NCBI GenBank assembly: GCA_024103135.1 | Contig: JAGFIZ010000025.1 | Span: 1 to 64,000, forward strand | Reading direction: 5' to 3' | From: Bradyrhizobiaceae bacterium | GTDB taxonomy: Bacteria; Bacteroidota; Ignavibacteria; Kapaibacteriales; Kapaibacteriaceae | DNA: 64,000 nucleotides | Shown here: piece after piece, positions 15,126 through 60,354 of the stretch | Numbering within the stretch: position 1 is the first letter of the stretch | Layout of the letters: each line of letters opens with the position of its first letter | Translations under genes and position numbers: made by a program | Notes under the pieces: generated by a model | Told to the model about the DNA's origin: nothing | Seen by the model: only the letters and a program-made list of their open reading frames with translations | The model's database searches: none

Positions 15126-16397
15126 ATGTGGAGGTTTGCGCCAAGCGTGCGATCTTTCACATTCATGCAGGGACTACAAGTCATCATGCGCAATGCATTC
15201 TCGGTACCGCAGTCAGTGGCTGTGCCAGAGAACACGCACGTGGCACAGGGAAAACGTGTTGCCGACGGTAGACTGTATGCACTTGATCTAGCACGGTTCA
15301 TTGCAATGATGTTCATGATGCAAGGGCATGTGATTGATGCACTTGTGAGCAGGTCTGAAATGTCGGTTGCCGACTTTCCATGGAACATCTGGCATTTCAT
15401 TCGTGGGTTTACGGCACCCATCTTTCTCATGGTCTCTGGTGCCGTGCATGCATTTGCTACGAAGCGCAACGAGGATGGAAGCGTACGTGCCGACGTGTTG
15501 CAGAAGCGCATTCGCTGGGCGTTCACGATCATTGGCATTGGATACATCCTCACCTTCCCAGCATCACGTGTGTGGGACCTGCCATTTGTGAGCCATGAAG
15601 GATGGCGAAACTTCTTGTCGGTGAACATCCTTCAGCTTACTGGTGCAACCATGCTGCTCTTCACGTTGGTGATAGCCGGCACCAAGAGTGTTGCACAGAT
15701 GGGTAAGCGTGGATTGGCTACGGCAGGAGCATTGCTTGTTTTGACGCCGGTGATGCAAGTGTTGCCAGGTATTGAGCACCTTCCGCTATGGCTCAGAGCA
15801 TATCTCAACGACGCAACGGGTTCGATCTTCCCCATGTTTCCGTTCAGTGGTTATCTGTTCGTAGGACTGTACGTTGGGTCGAAGCTAGCAGCACAGCCAA
15901 AGGAGCAGCGCGACGAGTATCTGCAACACACATCGTGGCGTTATGGGATTGTCATCACGGCAATCGGACTGGTTGTACAGTATGCACTTAAGGCAGCAGG
16001 TGTGCCTGAAAGCATGACTGATGGACCCATGAGCGTGCCACTGTTTGTTTGGCGAGTAGGCGTAGTGCTCATGGTGTTCAGCGCCGCAGTGTGGGTGTTG
16101 AATCACACCTGGCACCTACGGAATTGGTATTCGTTGTTTGGCACGAAGTCATTGTGGATTTACATCATCCACCTGCTCATACTCTTTGGTACGCCTTGGA
16201 CGTCGAGTATTGGTCGAGTGTACTATCACTCGTTCTCAGCACCCGTAAGCATCGCCATCGCCTTGGGAATTGTAGCAACAACGCTTGTTTGTGCCTGGCT
16301 GTTTGACCTGTACTCCAAACAATCGTGGGCAAGCCGATGGCGCAATCCGCTGATGTATTCCGCCTATGCAGCGTTGATACTCACGCTGCTGGTGTAA
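15126..16397 (+). CDS. Membrane acyltransferase-like protein (DUF1624 type)
   Basis: A protein of up to 423 residues. The conserved region begins near residue 49 with RLYALDLARFIAMMFMMQGHVIDAL, the pattern of DUF1624/acyltransferase-3-like membrane acyltransferases, with a His in the first helix. About ten hydrophobic helices follow, including FTAPIFLMVSGAVHAF and FPFSGYLFVGLYVG. It would move an acyl group across or at the inner membrane; donor and acceptor are unknown. Starts at 15165 and 15186 are also in frame and all precede the domain, so the N-terminus is uncertain. A distant paralogue lies at 54818-55951. Confidence 0.7.
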   Translation: MWRFAPSVRSFTFMQGLQVIMRNAFSVPQSVAVPENTHVAQGKRVADGRLYALDLARFIAMMFMMQGHVIDALVSRSEMSVADFPWNIWHFIRGFTAPIFLMVSGAVHAFATKRNEDGSVRADVLQKRIRWAFTIIGIGYILTFPASRVWDLPFVSHEGWRNFLSVNILQLTGATMLLFTLVIAGTKSVAQMGKRGLATAGALLVLTPVMQVLPGIEHLPLWLRAYLNDATGSIFPMFPFSGYLFVGLYVGSKLAAQPKEQRDEYLQHTSWRYGIVITAIGLVVQYALKAAGVPESMTDGPMSVPLFVWRVGVVLMVFSAAVWVLNHTWHLRNWYSLFGTKSLWIYIIHLLILFGTPWTSSIGRVYYHSFSAPVSIAIALGIVATTLVCAWLFDLYSKQSWASRWRNPLMYSAYAALILTLLV

Positions 16398-54817: not shown

Positions 54818-55951
54818 CTACCGCAAGAAGAAGATCAGTAGCGTTACTACGATCTGCATGGCCAGTACCCACCGAGCGAGCGTTGGACGCTGACGTTTAA
54901 ACCAGTGCCACCCATACATGGCCACTAACAGTGGAATGGTGAGTGCAATCCACATTGTCGCAACCGTAAGGTAATTGCCCTGGCTCCAGCCAAAGTTTTC
55001 TAAAATGTCAGGCGTATAGGCACCATACACCACCTGAAGGTGACTCAAGTACAAGAACAGCGACTCCATGCCAACGATCTGCAGAAACGTTCCTGTACGC
55101 GACTGTTTGAGCCAATCTTCGATCAGAAACAGTCCACCGAACCCAACCATGAGTCCGCATATCCTAAACCCATGCACACCTGGCGACGTATACCACCACA
55201 CATCGTGCCATGGACTCGGTATGTCGAGCGACTTAATCCAGAAAATCACGACAGGTAGCGTGACGCCAAGGCCAACAAGCCATCGTGAAAGCTTGAGCTT
55301 ATTGTCAACCCTGAAGAACAGATTGCTAAAGAACATGCCAGCAAACAAGTAACCCGACCATGGAACAATTGGAAATGTGGAAGGGGGCTTGTTAGAGAAG
55401 GCATAGGCAAGCCAGTACGGCAAGTCGGAAGCATTGACCCACTGTTGAACGAAGACCGTTGTAGTGAACACCAGTCCAGCAAGTATGCCACATGCAACAG
55501 AGGTCCAGTGTACGCTTCTCAACACCAGGAACAAGCCTAATACGATGAGCGATGCATAGACAATCGTGTGCAGCACGTCGAACTGAAGCCAAGAACGGAC
55601 AGCATCCGTCGGTAGCAGACTAAACTTAGAGAAGGCAAAGACCGGTACATGGAACATGTAAGCCCAGAACAGCACGTAAGACAGTCGGCGCAAGTAGTCC
55701 CAGAGGGCCGGCTGTAGTTGCAGATATGCCGAGCCCTTCCGCGTGAGGGCGATGTACAGTCCGCAGCCAGCGCAAAAAATGAATGCCGGTGCAACAAAAC
55801 CATTTGAAATGTTCAGGAGGTTATACCACCAACCATGCTTGAGTTCATCGGCAAGGACGACGTTGGTGATGTGAACCTGGATCATCCAGATCACGGCAAA
55901 GGCACGGAGTACGTCCAGGAAGACGTACCGCTCGGATTTGGCAGCAGTCAT
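54818..55951 (-). CDS. Membrane acyltransferase-like protein (DUF1624 type)
   Basis: The start is set at ATG 55951 (377 residues), which follows a good GGAGGG (55963-55968) and overlaps the TGA of a 37-residue ORF (ATGA). ERYVFLDVLRAFAVIWMIQVHITNVVL (about 7-33) opens the domain, with a His in the first helix, and ten or so helices follow, including FVAPAFIFCAGCGLYIAL and FPIVPWSGYLFAGMFFSNLFF. It resembles DUF1624 and acyltransferase-3 enzymes that modify envelope glycans. It is a distant paralogue of the protein at 15126, sharing the FPxxPWSGYLFxGxxxS motif. Confidence 0.75.
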   Translation of the reverse strand: MTAAKSERYVFLDVLRAFAVIWMIQVHITNVVLADELKHGWWYNLLNISNGFVAPAFIFCAGCGLYIALTRKGSAYLQLQPALWDYLRRLSYVLFWAYMFHVPVFAFSKFSLLPTDAVRSWLQFDVLHTIVYASLIVLGLFLVLRSVHWTSVACGILAGLVFTTTVFVQQWVNASDLPYWLAYAFSNKPPSTFPIVPWSGYLFAGMFFSNLFFRVDNKLKLSRWLVGLGVTLPVVIFWIKSLDIPSPWHDVWWYTSPGVHGFRICGLMVGFGGLFLIEDWLKQSRTGTFLQIVGMESLFLYLSHLQVVYGAYTPDILENFGWSQGNYLTVATMWIALTIPLLVAMYGWHWFKRQRPTLARWVLAMQIVVTLLIFFLR

Positions 55952-56061
55952 CGCTCTCTCTTCCCTCCAAAGAATCGGCGAAAGAAACCAAGAACAACGC
56001 TGGACAGCAAGATTGCCCCAACGATTACGGCCAAAAACACAATGACGTAGCGTTGCATCAT
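55948..56061 (-). CDS. Putative 37-residue single-span membrane protein
   Basis: A short ORF (ATG 56061 or 56058, TGA 55950-55948). It codes for a hydrophobic segment (VIVFLAVIVGAILLSSVVLG) and a basic tail (FFRRFFGGKRER). Its TGA overlaps the ATG of the acyltransferase-like gene in an ATGA, and the SD of that gene lies inside it. Topology would be N-out/C-in. Coupling and the hydrophobic/basic pattern favour a real gene, but no homologue is recognised. Confidence 0.5.
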   Translation of the reverse strand: MMQRYVIVFLAVIVGAILLSSVVLGFFRRFFGGKRER

Positions 56062-56121
56062 GCGATAATGTGCAAAAAGAACACATTGTGGTGTGAACTA
56101 TGCAACTATTTTTATCGAACC

Positions 56122-57681
56122 ATGAGCGACCACACCTTAGCATCGTCAGATGTGATTGCTGCCATCGACGTTGGCACCAACTCCTTTCACATGGTCATCG
56201 CAACCGTTAGTGCCAGGGGTGTGCTAAAGGTCATCGCACGAAATAAGGAGATGGTTCGGCTCGGATCAGCTGCTGCCGATATGAAGATGCTCCAGCCAGA
56301 TGCCATGCAGCGCGGCGTGCTAACCATGAAGCGGTTTGTCGAAGAAGCACGTCACCACAACGCACACATCCTGGCTGTGGCAACCAGTGCCGTAAGAGAA
56401 GCACTTAATCGCGACGAGTTTGTGCACCAGGTTCTCGAAGCCACTGGCGTCGAGATCGAGGTAGTTAGCGGTACCGAGGAAGGCCGCCTTATCTATCTCG
56501 GGGCCAGCCATGCCTTGCCAATCTCCAACGTCCACACACTCGTGATGGACATCGGTGGGGGAAGCACTGAAACCATCCTTGGCTATAAGGGCGAGGTGGA
56601 CTATGTACACAGTGCCAAACTGGGTCACATCCGGATGACGACGCGCTTCTTCCCCGATGGCAGGGCTACACAGGAGGCTGTGGATGAGTGTCGGGAGGTT
56701 ATTCGCGGTGTGTGGACCCCTGCCTTCCAAGCCATTAACGCTCTAGGATTTGAGCGCGTAGTGGGCTGTAGCGGAACCATCATGGCTTTGGTGAATATGA
56801 CGCTGACGCGGAGGAAGCGACGTACACCAGAAGGTCTCAATGCCGTCCGCCTATCAAGCGAACACCTCCTCGAGACCATTCAGCACGTTGTCGACGTCAA
56901 GATCAACGGCGGCGGCAAGTTGGAAGGGCTCGACCCCAAGCGCAATGACGTGATACTTGCTGGCGCACTCATACTCGAACAAGCCATTCATGGCTTGAAG
57001 ATTGGGGAGATCACCACATCGGCTTATGCACTTCGAGAAGGCATCGTCTTCGACACGGTGCAGAAAACCCGCGACATTGAGGAGTACCATCACCTTTCGC
57101 ACCTGCGATTTCACAGCGTGGATCATTTGTGTGAGCAGTTCAAGGTGAACAAAGCTCACGCAGAGCACGTACGCGACCTGTCACTGATGATGTTCGATGA
57201 GCTCGCTGTCGTTCACGGCTATTCGTACGTGGAGAGGGAGTTGCTTGAAGCTGCTGCCTTGCTCCATGACGTCGGCTATCACATCTCAGCCGATCAGCAT
57301 CATAAGCATGCAGAGTACATCATTCGCAACAGTCAGATGCCTGGCTTCACCAATAGTGAAACAGCGCTCATTGGATGCATCGCACGCTATCACCGGAAGA
57401 GTCATCCAAAGAAGAAGCACCCTACCTACTCCACATTGTCGCAAGAAGACCAGAAGATGGTGAGTACCATGGCGTCGATGCTGCGCATAGCAGAGGGACT
57501 CGACAGACGCCAGCAACAGAATGTGAAATCCATTCGCATCGCCACCACCCCACAGACTATCAACATTGTTGCCATAGCCCCCTCCCAAACACCCGACATC
57601 GAACTGTGGGGGGCAGAGCGCAGGAAGGCCTTGATGGAGGAGGTCTTCCAGCGTGAAGTAGTCCTTGGTAGTACCGGTTAG
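56122..57681 (+). CDS. Ppx/GppA phosphatase-family protein with HD domain
   Basis: 519 residues from ATG 56122; an in-frame ATG at 56053 adds residues unlike the family. The ASKHA-type Ppx/GppA domain (about 10-305) has AIDVGTNSFHMVIATV (14-29), VVSGTEEGRLIYLGA and VMDIGGGSTETILG. The C-terminal HD domain (about 325-490) shows HAEHVRDLSLMMFDEL and LLHDVGYHISADQHHKHAEY. It may hydrolyse polyphosphate or pppGpp; the two cannot be separated by eye. Divergent from the acyltransferase pair across about 60 bases. Confidence 0.92.
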   Translation: MSDHTLASSDVIAAIDVGTNSFHMVIATVSARGVLKVIARNKEMVRLGSAAADMKMLQPDAMQRGVLTMKRFVEEARHHNAHILAVATSAVREALNRDEFVHQVLEATGVEIEVVSGTEEGRLIYLGASHALPISNVHTLVMDIGGGSTETILGYKGEVDYVHSAKLGHIRMTTRFFPDGRATQEAVDECREVIRGVWTPAFQAINALGFERVVGCSGTIMALVNMTLTRRKRRTPEGLNAVRLSSEHLLETIQHVVDVKINGGGKLEGLDPKRNDVILAGALILEQAIHGLKIGEITTSAYALREGIVFDTVQKTRDIEEYHHLSHLRFHSVDHLCEQFKVNKAHAEHVRDLSLMMFDELAVVHGYSYVERELLEAAALLHDVGYHISADQHHKHAEYIIRNSQMPGFTNSETALIGCIARYHRKSHPKKKHPTYSTLSQEDQKMVSTMASMLRIAEGLDRRQQQNVKSIRIATTPQTINIVAIAPSQTPDIELWGAERRKALMEEVFQREVVLGSTG

Positions 57682-60107: not shown

Positions 60108-60354
60108 CGGGGATGACGTAAGAGGCAGTCTTCCCTGCGCAAGCAGGGATCCAGAACGCTATTCGCTGGGCCCCCGCTTCCGCGGGGATGACGACACTTT
60201 CGCGGGGAACGACGTAAGAGGCTGTCTTCCCTGCGTAAGCAGGTCCCGGTTTTCACCGGGATGACGAAAAGGAGCTGGGCCCCCGCTTTCGCGGGGGTGA
60301 CGACACTTTCGCGGGGATGACAACACTTTCGCGGGGATGACGGGGGAGGAACAC
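60107..60354. repeat. Intergenic palindromic repeat cluster (GGGATGACG type)
   Basis: A run of short GC-rich hairpins with tetraloops: CCCTGC/GCAGGG (60133-60148), CCCCGC/GCGGGG (60172-60187), CCCGGT/ACCGGG (60245-60260) and CCCCCGC/GCGGGGG (60280-60297). Most are followed by the tail ATGACG or a near copy (GGTGACGA). Two tandem 20-base units (CACTTTCGCGGGGATGAC core) occur at 60301-60340, and the GTAAGAGGC-TCTTCCCTGCG unit occurs twice (from 60118 and 60214). The arms differ but pair, suggesting hairpin structure is kept. This is the widespread intergenic palindrome family that gives spurious ORFs such as VIPAKAGIQ. The first copy abuts the preceding stop. Confidence 0.8.

Follow-up and report, generated by a model that had tools for sequence, protein, structure and literature searches.

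Which larger protein, if any, is served by a membrane protein of only 37 residues whose gene lies between an acyltransferase-like gene and a gene of the exopolyphosphatase family? The small gene is found at positions 55948–56061 on the minus strand of the window, i.e. the whole stretch of 64,000 nucleotides analysed here, and encodes a predicted single-pass membrane protein with the sequence MMQRYVIVFLAVIVGAILLSSVVLGFFRRFFGGKRER (37 aa); its second Met (MQR...) corresponds to the start used in several homologues. The TGA of the small gene (55950–55948) shares the nucleotides ATGA with the ATG (55951–55949) of the acyltransferase-like gene, which is likewise located on the minus strand. A preliminary description of this DNA had reported an ORF of 37 residues with a hydrophobic segment, a basic tail and an ATGA overlap, and all of these features are present at the coordinates it gave; the strand, which it had omitted, is the minus strand.

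The transmembrane (TM) segment comprises approximately residues 6–24, and the basic end has the sequence GFFRRFFGGKRER. The Kyte-Doolittle mean over 19 residues amounts to 3.07, and among the 470 window ORFs of 30–60 aa this ORF is the only one which reaches 2.5 or more. An AlphaFold2 model of the protein consists of a single helix from residue 3 to 31 (mean pLDDT 85). According to the positive-inside rule, the more positive flank of a TM helix is the cytoplasmic one. As 22 of 22 small proteins carry more positive charge on the C-terminal flank than on the N-terminal one, the protein is presumably bitopic with an N-out/C-in orientation.

Whole-genome searches included every one of the 23 genomes of the window's own family (f1) and revealed a homologue of the small gene in 22 of them. 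The exception (G004), a member of the window's genus, lacks both the small gene and the acyltransferase gene and possesses the exopolyphosphatase gene (ppx). Q3, V14, I17, G25, R28 and R29 are invariant across an alignment of 16 rows. Since synonymous sites saturate over all pairs (pooled pN/pS 0.49, with synonymous change near saturation), the case for selection is based on close pairs: dN/dS values were 0.024/0.230 for G012–G020, 0.044/0.256 for G001–G003, 0.063/0.268 for G018–G015, both of which are without the acyltransferase gene, and 0.117/0.481 for G007–G019. The resulting ratios of about 0.1–0.25 in these four closest pairs point to purifying selection, the outcome of a dN/dS check which had been proposed for this ORF. 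Together with the homologues in 22 of 23 genomes they bear out the earlier assumption of a real small protein, and by these sequence comparisons it is strongly supported that 55948–56061 (minus strand) encodes a conserved protein. It is very improbable that the ORF is instead a leader whose translation, and not its product, controls the acyltransferase. The ATGA coupling and the short length would suit a leader, but the conservation at the amino acid level in the close pairs and the invariant residues argue against it, as does the persistence of the small gene where the downstream enzyme gene is gone.

The product of the downstream gene (54818–55951, minus strand; 377 aa) matches PF07786 (HGSNAT_cat) with 77.8 bits (E 1.1e-21), which is above the cut-off of 22 bits, and is predicted to be an acyltransferase-3-like membrane enzyme of the HGSNAT_cat type. 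In all 16 coupled loci, namely the window and 15 loci of the same genus or family, the spacing between the end of the small ORF and the acyltransferase start ranges from an overlap of 4 nt to a gap of 21 nt; these values were read from the sequence by the authors, and the start in L004 was taken as GTG. A longer N-terminus of the enzyme, for which there would be room because no stop interrupts the frame before 56143, was considered and rejected because the frame is closed in 7 of the 15 family relatives, 6–24 nt upstream of the homologous start (L003, L005, L007, L008, L012, L015, L017). A Shine-Dalgarno-like GGAGGG lies within the small gene (window 55948–55970, minus strand), 11 nt before the acyltransferase ATG; it is unusual, as the phylum is reported to be without Shine-Dalgarno sites (PMC6847099). 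The window also contains a distant paralogue of the acyltransferase at 15270–16352 (plus strand; 23 % identity, E 2.2e-10), upstream of which nothing similar to the small ORF is seen. Back-translated patterns were also used to look for relatives of the acyltransferase in named genomes, with no match.

The preliminary description took the small protein for a possible subunit or regulator of this enzyme and proposed to look for a similar ORF before orthologous acyltransferase genes. Such an ORF is regularly present within the family, where small-protein profiles match at 15 of 15 f1 acyltransferase loci, but not in other families, where two profiles detected the small protein around none of 14 orthologues (best E 0.23). 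At a threshold of E ≤ 1e-40 the acyltransferase is found in 18 of the 23 f1 genomes. Four of the five genomes without it (G015, G016, G018 and G021) retain the small gene in its head-to-head arrangement with ppx, and a different gene occupies the acyltransferase position. In genomes without the enzyme the small gene still appears to be under selection, as judged from the pairs G018–G015 and G021–G015 (dN 0.069, dS 2.1), G016 being without a close pair. The enzyme was probably lost twice in f1, since on a ppx tree, which is a gene tree and not a species tree, G016 falls among acyltransferase-bearing genomes (support 100/99), apart from G015, G018 and G021 (100/100).

The retention without the enzyme, the absence at the 14 loci outside f1 and the homologues linked mostly to ppx indicate that the coupling to the acyltransferase is specific to this lineage, and the proposed function as subunit or regulator finds little backing; a role of the small protein as ACYLTRANSFERASE partner is not well supported. 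Such a role would agree with the tight coupling at 16 of 16 loci, with the membrane nature of both products, with the enzyme gene lying divergently beside the small gene in the eight genomes seen of another family (f3), where a secondary interaction is conceivable, and with a weak co-occurrence of both genes across the order (p 0.016). It is nevertheless unlikely in view of the maintenance of the small gene without the enzyme, under purifying selection where tested.

On its other side the small gene is adjoined by ppx/gppA (56122–57681, plus strand), a gene of the exopolyphosphatase/pppGpp phosphatase family (PF02541, 226.8 bits; PF21447, 113.1 bits), which is oriented head-to-head with it; a gene for a Do-family (HtrA) protease lies beyond ppx. 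The TTG at 56053 listed as the ppx start is probably too early, and the ATG at 56122 is assumed here. In the order to which Candidatus Kapaibacterium belongs, an iterative profile detected, at 52 of the 72 ppx loci compared, a small-protein homologue which directly precedes ppx on the same strand. A ppx match was obtained in 74 genomes of the order, and the 72 loci represent all of them except G039 and G119; a short match of 33 aa in G073, on a contig other than that of ppx, was excluded from the counts. The stop codon of the homologues is found from 174 nt before to 26 nt beyond the position which corresponds, in the alignment, to the ppx start of the window; in other families of the order it often overlaps the start of ppx.

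As an iterative HMM can absorb generic TM segments, a non-iterative control was run. An HMM made from f1 proteins only was compared with 3406 stop-to-stop ORFs from the 72 non-f1 ppx loci. In each of the 17 loci with the highest scores, and in 40 of 72 loci overall, the best ORF was the co-directional one ending at ppx, a position held by 8.4 % of the ORFs. A reciprocal profile of 21 non-f1 proteins had a single match at E ≤ 0.001 in the genome of the window, namely the small ORF (E 4.8e-7). With this profile matches were obtained in 12 of the 23 f1 genomes, always at the small gene, and 11, including G004, stayed below the threshold; in the order as a whole 76 of 123 genomes had a match at E ≤ 0.001, with at most one copy per genome. 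The columns from the start Met to a juxtamembrane G..RR motif align without internal gaps in 26 of 26 rows chosen by the authors, and the motif itself, which is present in most families, occurs in 28 of the 52 homologues, although in only one of 25 in family f2. Most homologues are longer than the window protein, with 60–123 aa as called in 49 of 52, and a loose pattern, which possibly counts too many, assigns a tail-like stretch to 43 of 52. The tail has the consensus V[IL]YxKDDVxVLKGEA and is absent from f1; furthermore, six members of f3 are short or have, by eye, lost the tail and resemble the small protein of the window. In a model of a tailed homologue the helix is accompanied by a tail hairpin of low confidence. 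By these comparisons the window protein belongs to an undescribed small-membrane-protein family, and a 37-residue gene without a Pfam or NCBIfam match is thus part of a family conserved across a bacterial order.

Among 100 order genomes outside f1, the small gene and ppx occur together in 64, the small gene only in six, ppx only in ten and neither in 20 (Fisher p 5.9e-9 from a hand tally which ignores phylogeny); families f4 and f5 lack both genes, and their shared ancestry inflates this co-occurrence. The corresponding numbers for the small gene and the acyltransferase are 41, 29, 9 and 21 (p 0.016). Hence both links exist in the same genomes, and the one to ppx is the stronger.

The co-directional state is found only in other families (f2, f3, f6, f7, f9 and f10), and the ORF of the window does not share it. 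In the eight f3 genomes seen the acyltransferase gene is divergent and adjoins the small gene, which lies on the ppx strand in the seven of them with a ppx match. The f1 small gene is located between the same two genes, on the acyltransferase strand; its distance from the called start of ppx amounts to 14–72 bp. The ppx tree, comprising 19 of the 23 f1 genomes (without L085 and L098, and without G001 and G019, in which ppx is broken) together with selected members of the order, shows f1 as monophyletic (100/100), with a weakly supported branching position of its own (65/70). Given this monophyly and the co-directional state in six other families, we infer that the small gene flipped its strand once, in the ancestor of f1. 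After the flip it would have read into the acyltransferase gene and become coupled to it. The ATGA overlap looks younger than the small gene, and a start-stop overlap with a neighbour can, by itself, point to the wrong partner. A strand switch of a single gene is unusual; the small-protein family is new, its kind an ordinary one.

The 60 bp between the start codons of the small gene and ppx (56062–56121, no strand assigned) presumably form a shared promoter region. An element TAnnTT[TCG][GC] starts 11–12 nt before the ATG of the small gene in 16 of 22 f1 genomes (0.7 expected from shuffles), and 11 of the 22, which belong to a single genus, have a TAnnTTTG facing ppx; the pattern was picked after the sequences had been inspected. 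Both are similar to the Bacteroidota −7 consensus TAnnTTTG, as given in PMC7366714. This suggests back-to-back promoters between the two genes in the f1 relatives, where the mRNA of the small gene may be leaderless. In the window's own species (G000) neither pattern is recognisable. Scans for promoters and terminators found sites no more numerous than in shuffles. In one f1 genus a near-palindrome AAGATAC...GTATCTT is present between the small gene and ppx (e.g. L046, L033, L054), which is consistent with two back-to-back −7 elements.

The best explanation, with a probability of roughly 0.45, is a bitopic C-in membrane protein which acts on or together with Ppx and which in f1 lost its tail while its gene was flipped. 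The small protein would work at the inner face of the membrane, recruiting or regulating Ppx, and the activity affected would be the hydrolysis of polyphosphate or (p)ppGpp. In the ancestral layout the small gene would have stood directly before ppx on the same strand. In f1, with the tail gone and the small gene on the opposite strand, head-to-head with ppx, a divergent promoter could keep both genes co-expressed, and the coupling to the acyltransferase gene would mainly serve translation of the enzyme. If the small protein does act on Ppx, it would provide a means, located at the membrane, of influencing the turnover of polyphosphate or (p)ppGpp. A wider version, in which the small proteins recruit Ppx/GppA to the membrane throughout the order and the micro-inversion in one family was an exchange of partners with retained ppx co-expression, is rather doubtful; if true, the recruitment would couple polyphosphate or alarmone turnover to the membrane.

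Several observations speak against a Ppx partnership. The small gene lies away from ppx in 12 of the 64 genomes with both; six genomes with the small gene show no ppx match at E ≤ 1e-40, and ten with ppx lack the small gene. Furthermore, the homology of the f2 proteins is based largely on the iterative profile and on position, and the loss of the tail in f1 argues against binding of Ppx by the tail there. The contexts read comprise 16 loci (11 of the 12 away from ppx and five of the six in genomes without ppx) as well as G037 and G033. The neighbours vary and include, by eye, genes for a YchF-like GTPase, MurG/PurC-like proteins, a Clp-like ATPase, an ECF-sigma-like and a CrtC-like protein. 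Because of these varied neighbours and of G004, a genome of the window's own genus with ppx and without the small gene, the Ppx role, although the most likely one, is a putative one, with an autonomous membrane function close behind. The protein would then have no dedicated enzyme partner, and ppx and the acyltransferase gene would be convenient neighbours for co-expression. This possibility, which deserves serious consideration, gains from the 16 small genes in varied surroundings, from the six genomes without a ppx match, from the limit of one copy per genome at E ≤ 0.001 and from the four relatives which retain the small gene without the acyltransferase. However, it leaves aside that no other gene adjoins the small gene nearly as often as ppx does (52 of the 64 genomes which have both), and that ppx is still the head-to-head neighbour in f1 after the flip. 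That the small protein serves an ECF sigma factor as an anti-sigma-like membrane partner is hardly credible: a gene which by eye is ECF-sigma-like stands directly upstream in families f8 and f10 (L068, L073, L343, L344), but it was seen in these four genomes only, the remaining contexts having different neighbours, and the sole Sigma_reg_N match (17.9 versus 26.3 bits) concerns a class-level protein of unsure homology.

No known family accounts for the small protein of the window, which has no match at E ≤ 0.001 in Pfam or NCBIfam (best Pfam score 11.8 versus 27 bits) and only E 1.1 as the best value in a PDB profile search. The NCBIfam matches of eight homologues are far below the cut-off. 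One f1 homologue matches DUF5438 (E 6.3e-4), and two of 12 class-level proteins match OAD_gamma (best E 1.3e-5), in both cases with no cut-off given. DUF4834 (PF16118) is a small membrane protein family of Bacteroidota whose members, like those described here, are short and have an N-terminal TM helix and a basic juxtamembrane stretch. However, its matches to homologues are weak (E 0.0076–0.18, best 17.6 bits versus a curated cut-off of 27.8 bits); among those scored, the maximum is 16.6 bits for tailed homologues and 17.6 bits for class-level proteins, one of 16 f1 members gives E 0.18, and the window protein has no match at E ≤ 5. Small bitopic membrane proteins of the AcrZ, KdpF and MgtS types modulate a larger protein and resemble the window protein in having a single TM segment and fewer than 60 aa. 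In contrast to them, the partner here is only putative and the gene lies on the strand opposite to the usual neighbour of its relatives; no significant sequence relation exists, an MgtS-like match being limited to E 0.076 in one of 16 f1 members. The Ppx/GppA family (PF02541) adjoins most of the small-protein family and is not homologous to it. Titles and abstracts yielded no precedent for a small membrane protein or anchor linked to an exopolyphosphatase or Ppx/GppA, and in the literature searched neither DUF4834 nor Kapabacteria together with exopolyphosphatase was mentioned.

Genes for small single-TM proteins whose tail is of the D-x-x-[FY]-E-E type (YEE/FEE) also occur near ppx in other orders of the class, at 12 of 27 loci (L185, L187, L191, L193, L198–L201, L206, L209–L211), usually one GT9-like gene (by eye) upstream of it. 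A class-level profile found such proteins in 49 of the 68 class genomes given (of 75), many of them away from ppx. As a profile comparison with the window's family aligns only 17 TM columns, a similar position and not homology is claimed. In f8 the homologue of the small gene lies away from ppx, and the f8 and f10 tails continue beyond the usual motif with an IRD[AV]x[FY] stretch which by eye resembles the D-x-x-[FY]-E-E tail; a bridge between the window's family and the class-level proteins is possible. Elsewhere in the window, a cluster of imperfect direct repeats of 26–44 nt (CCCGCTTTCGCGGGGATGACGA type) at 60109–60343 resembles REP-like intergenic elements.
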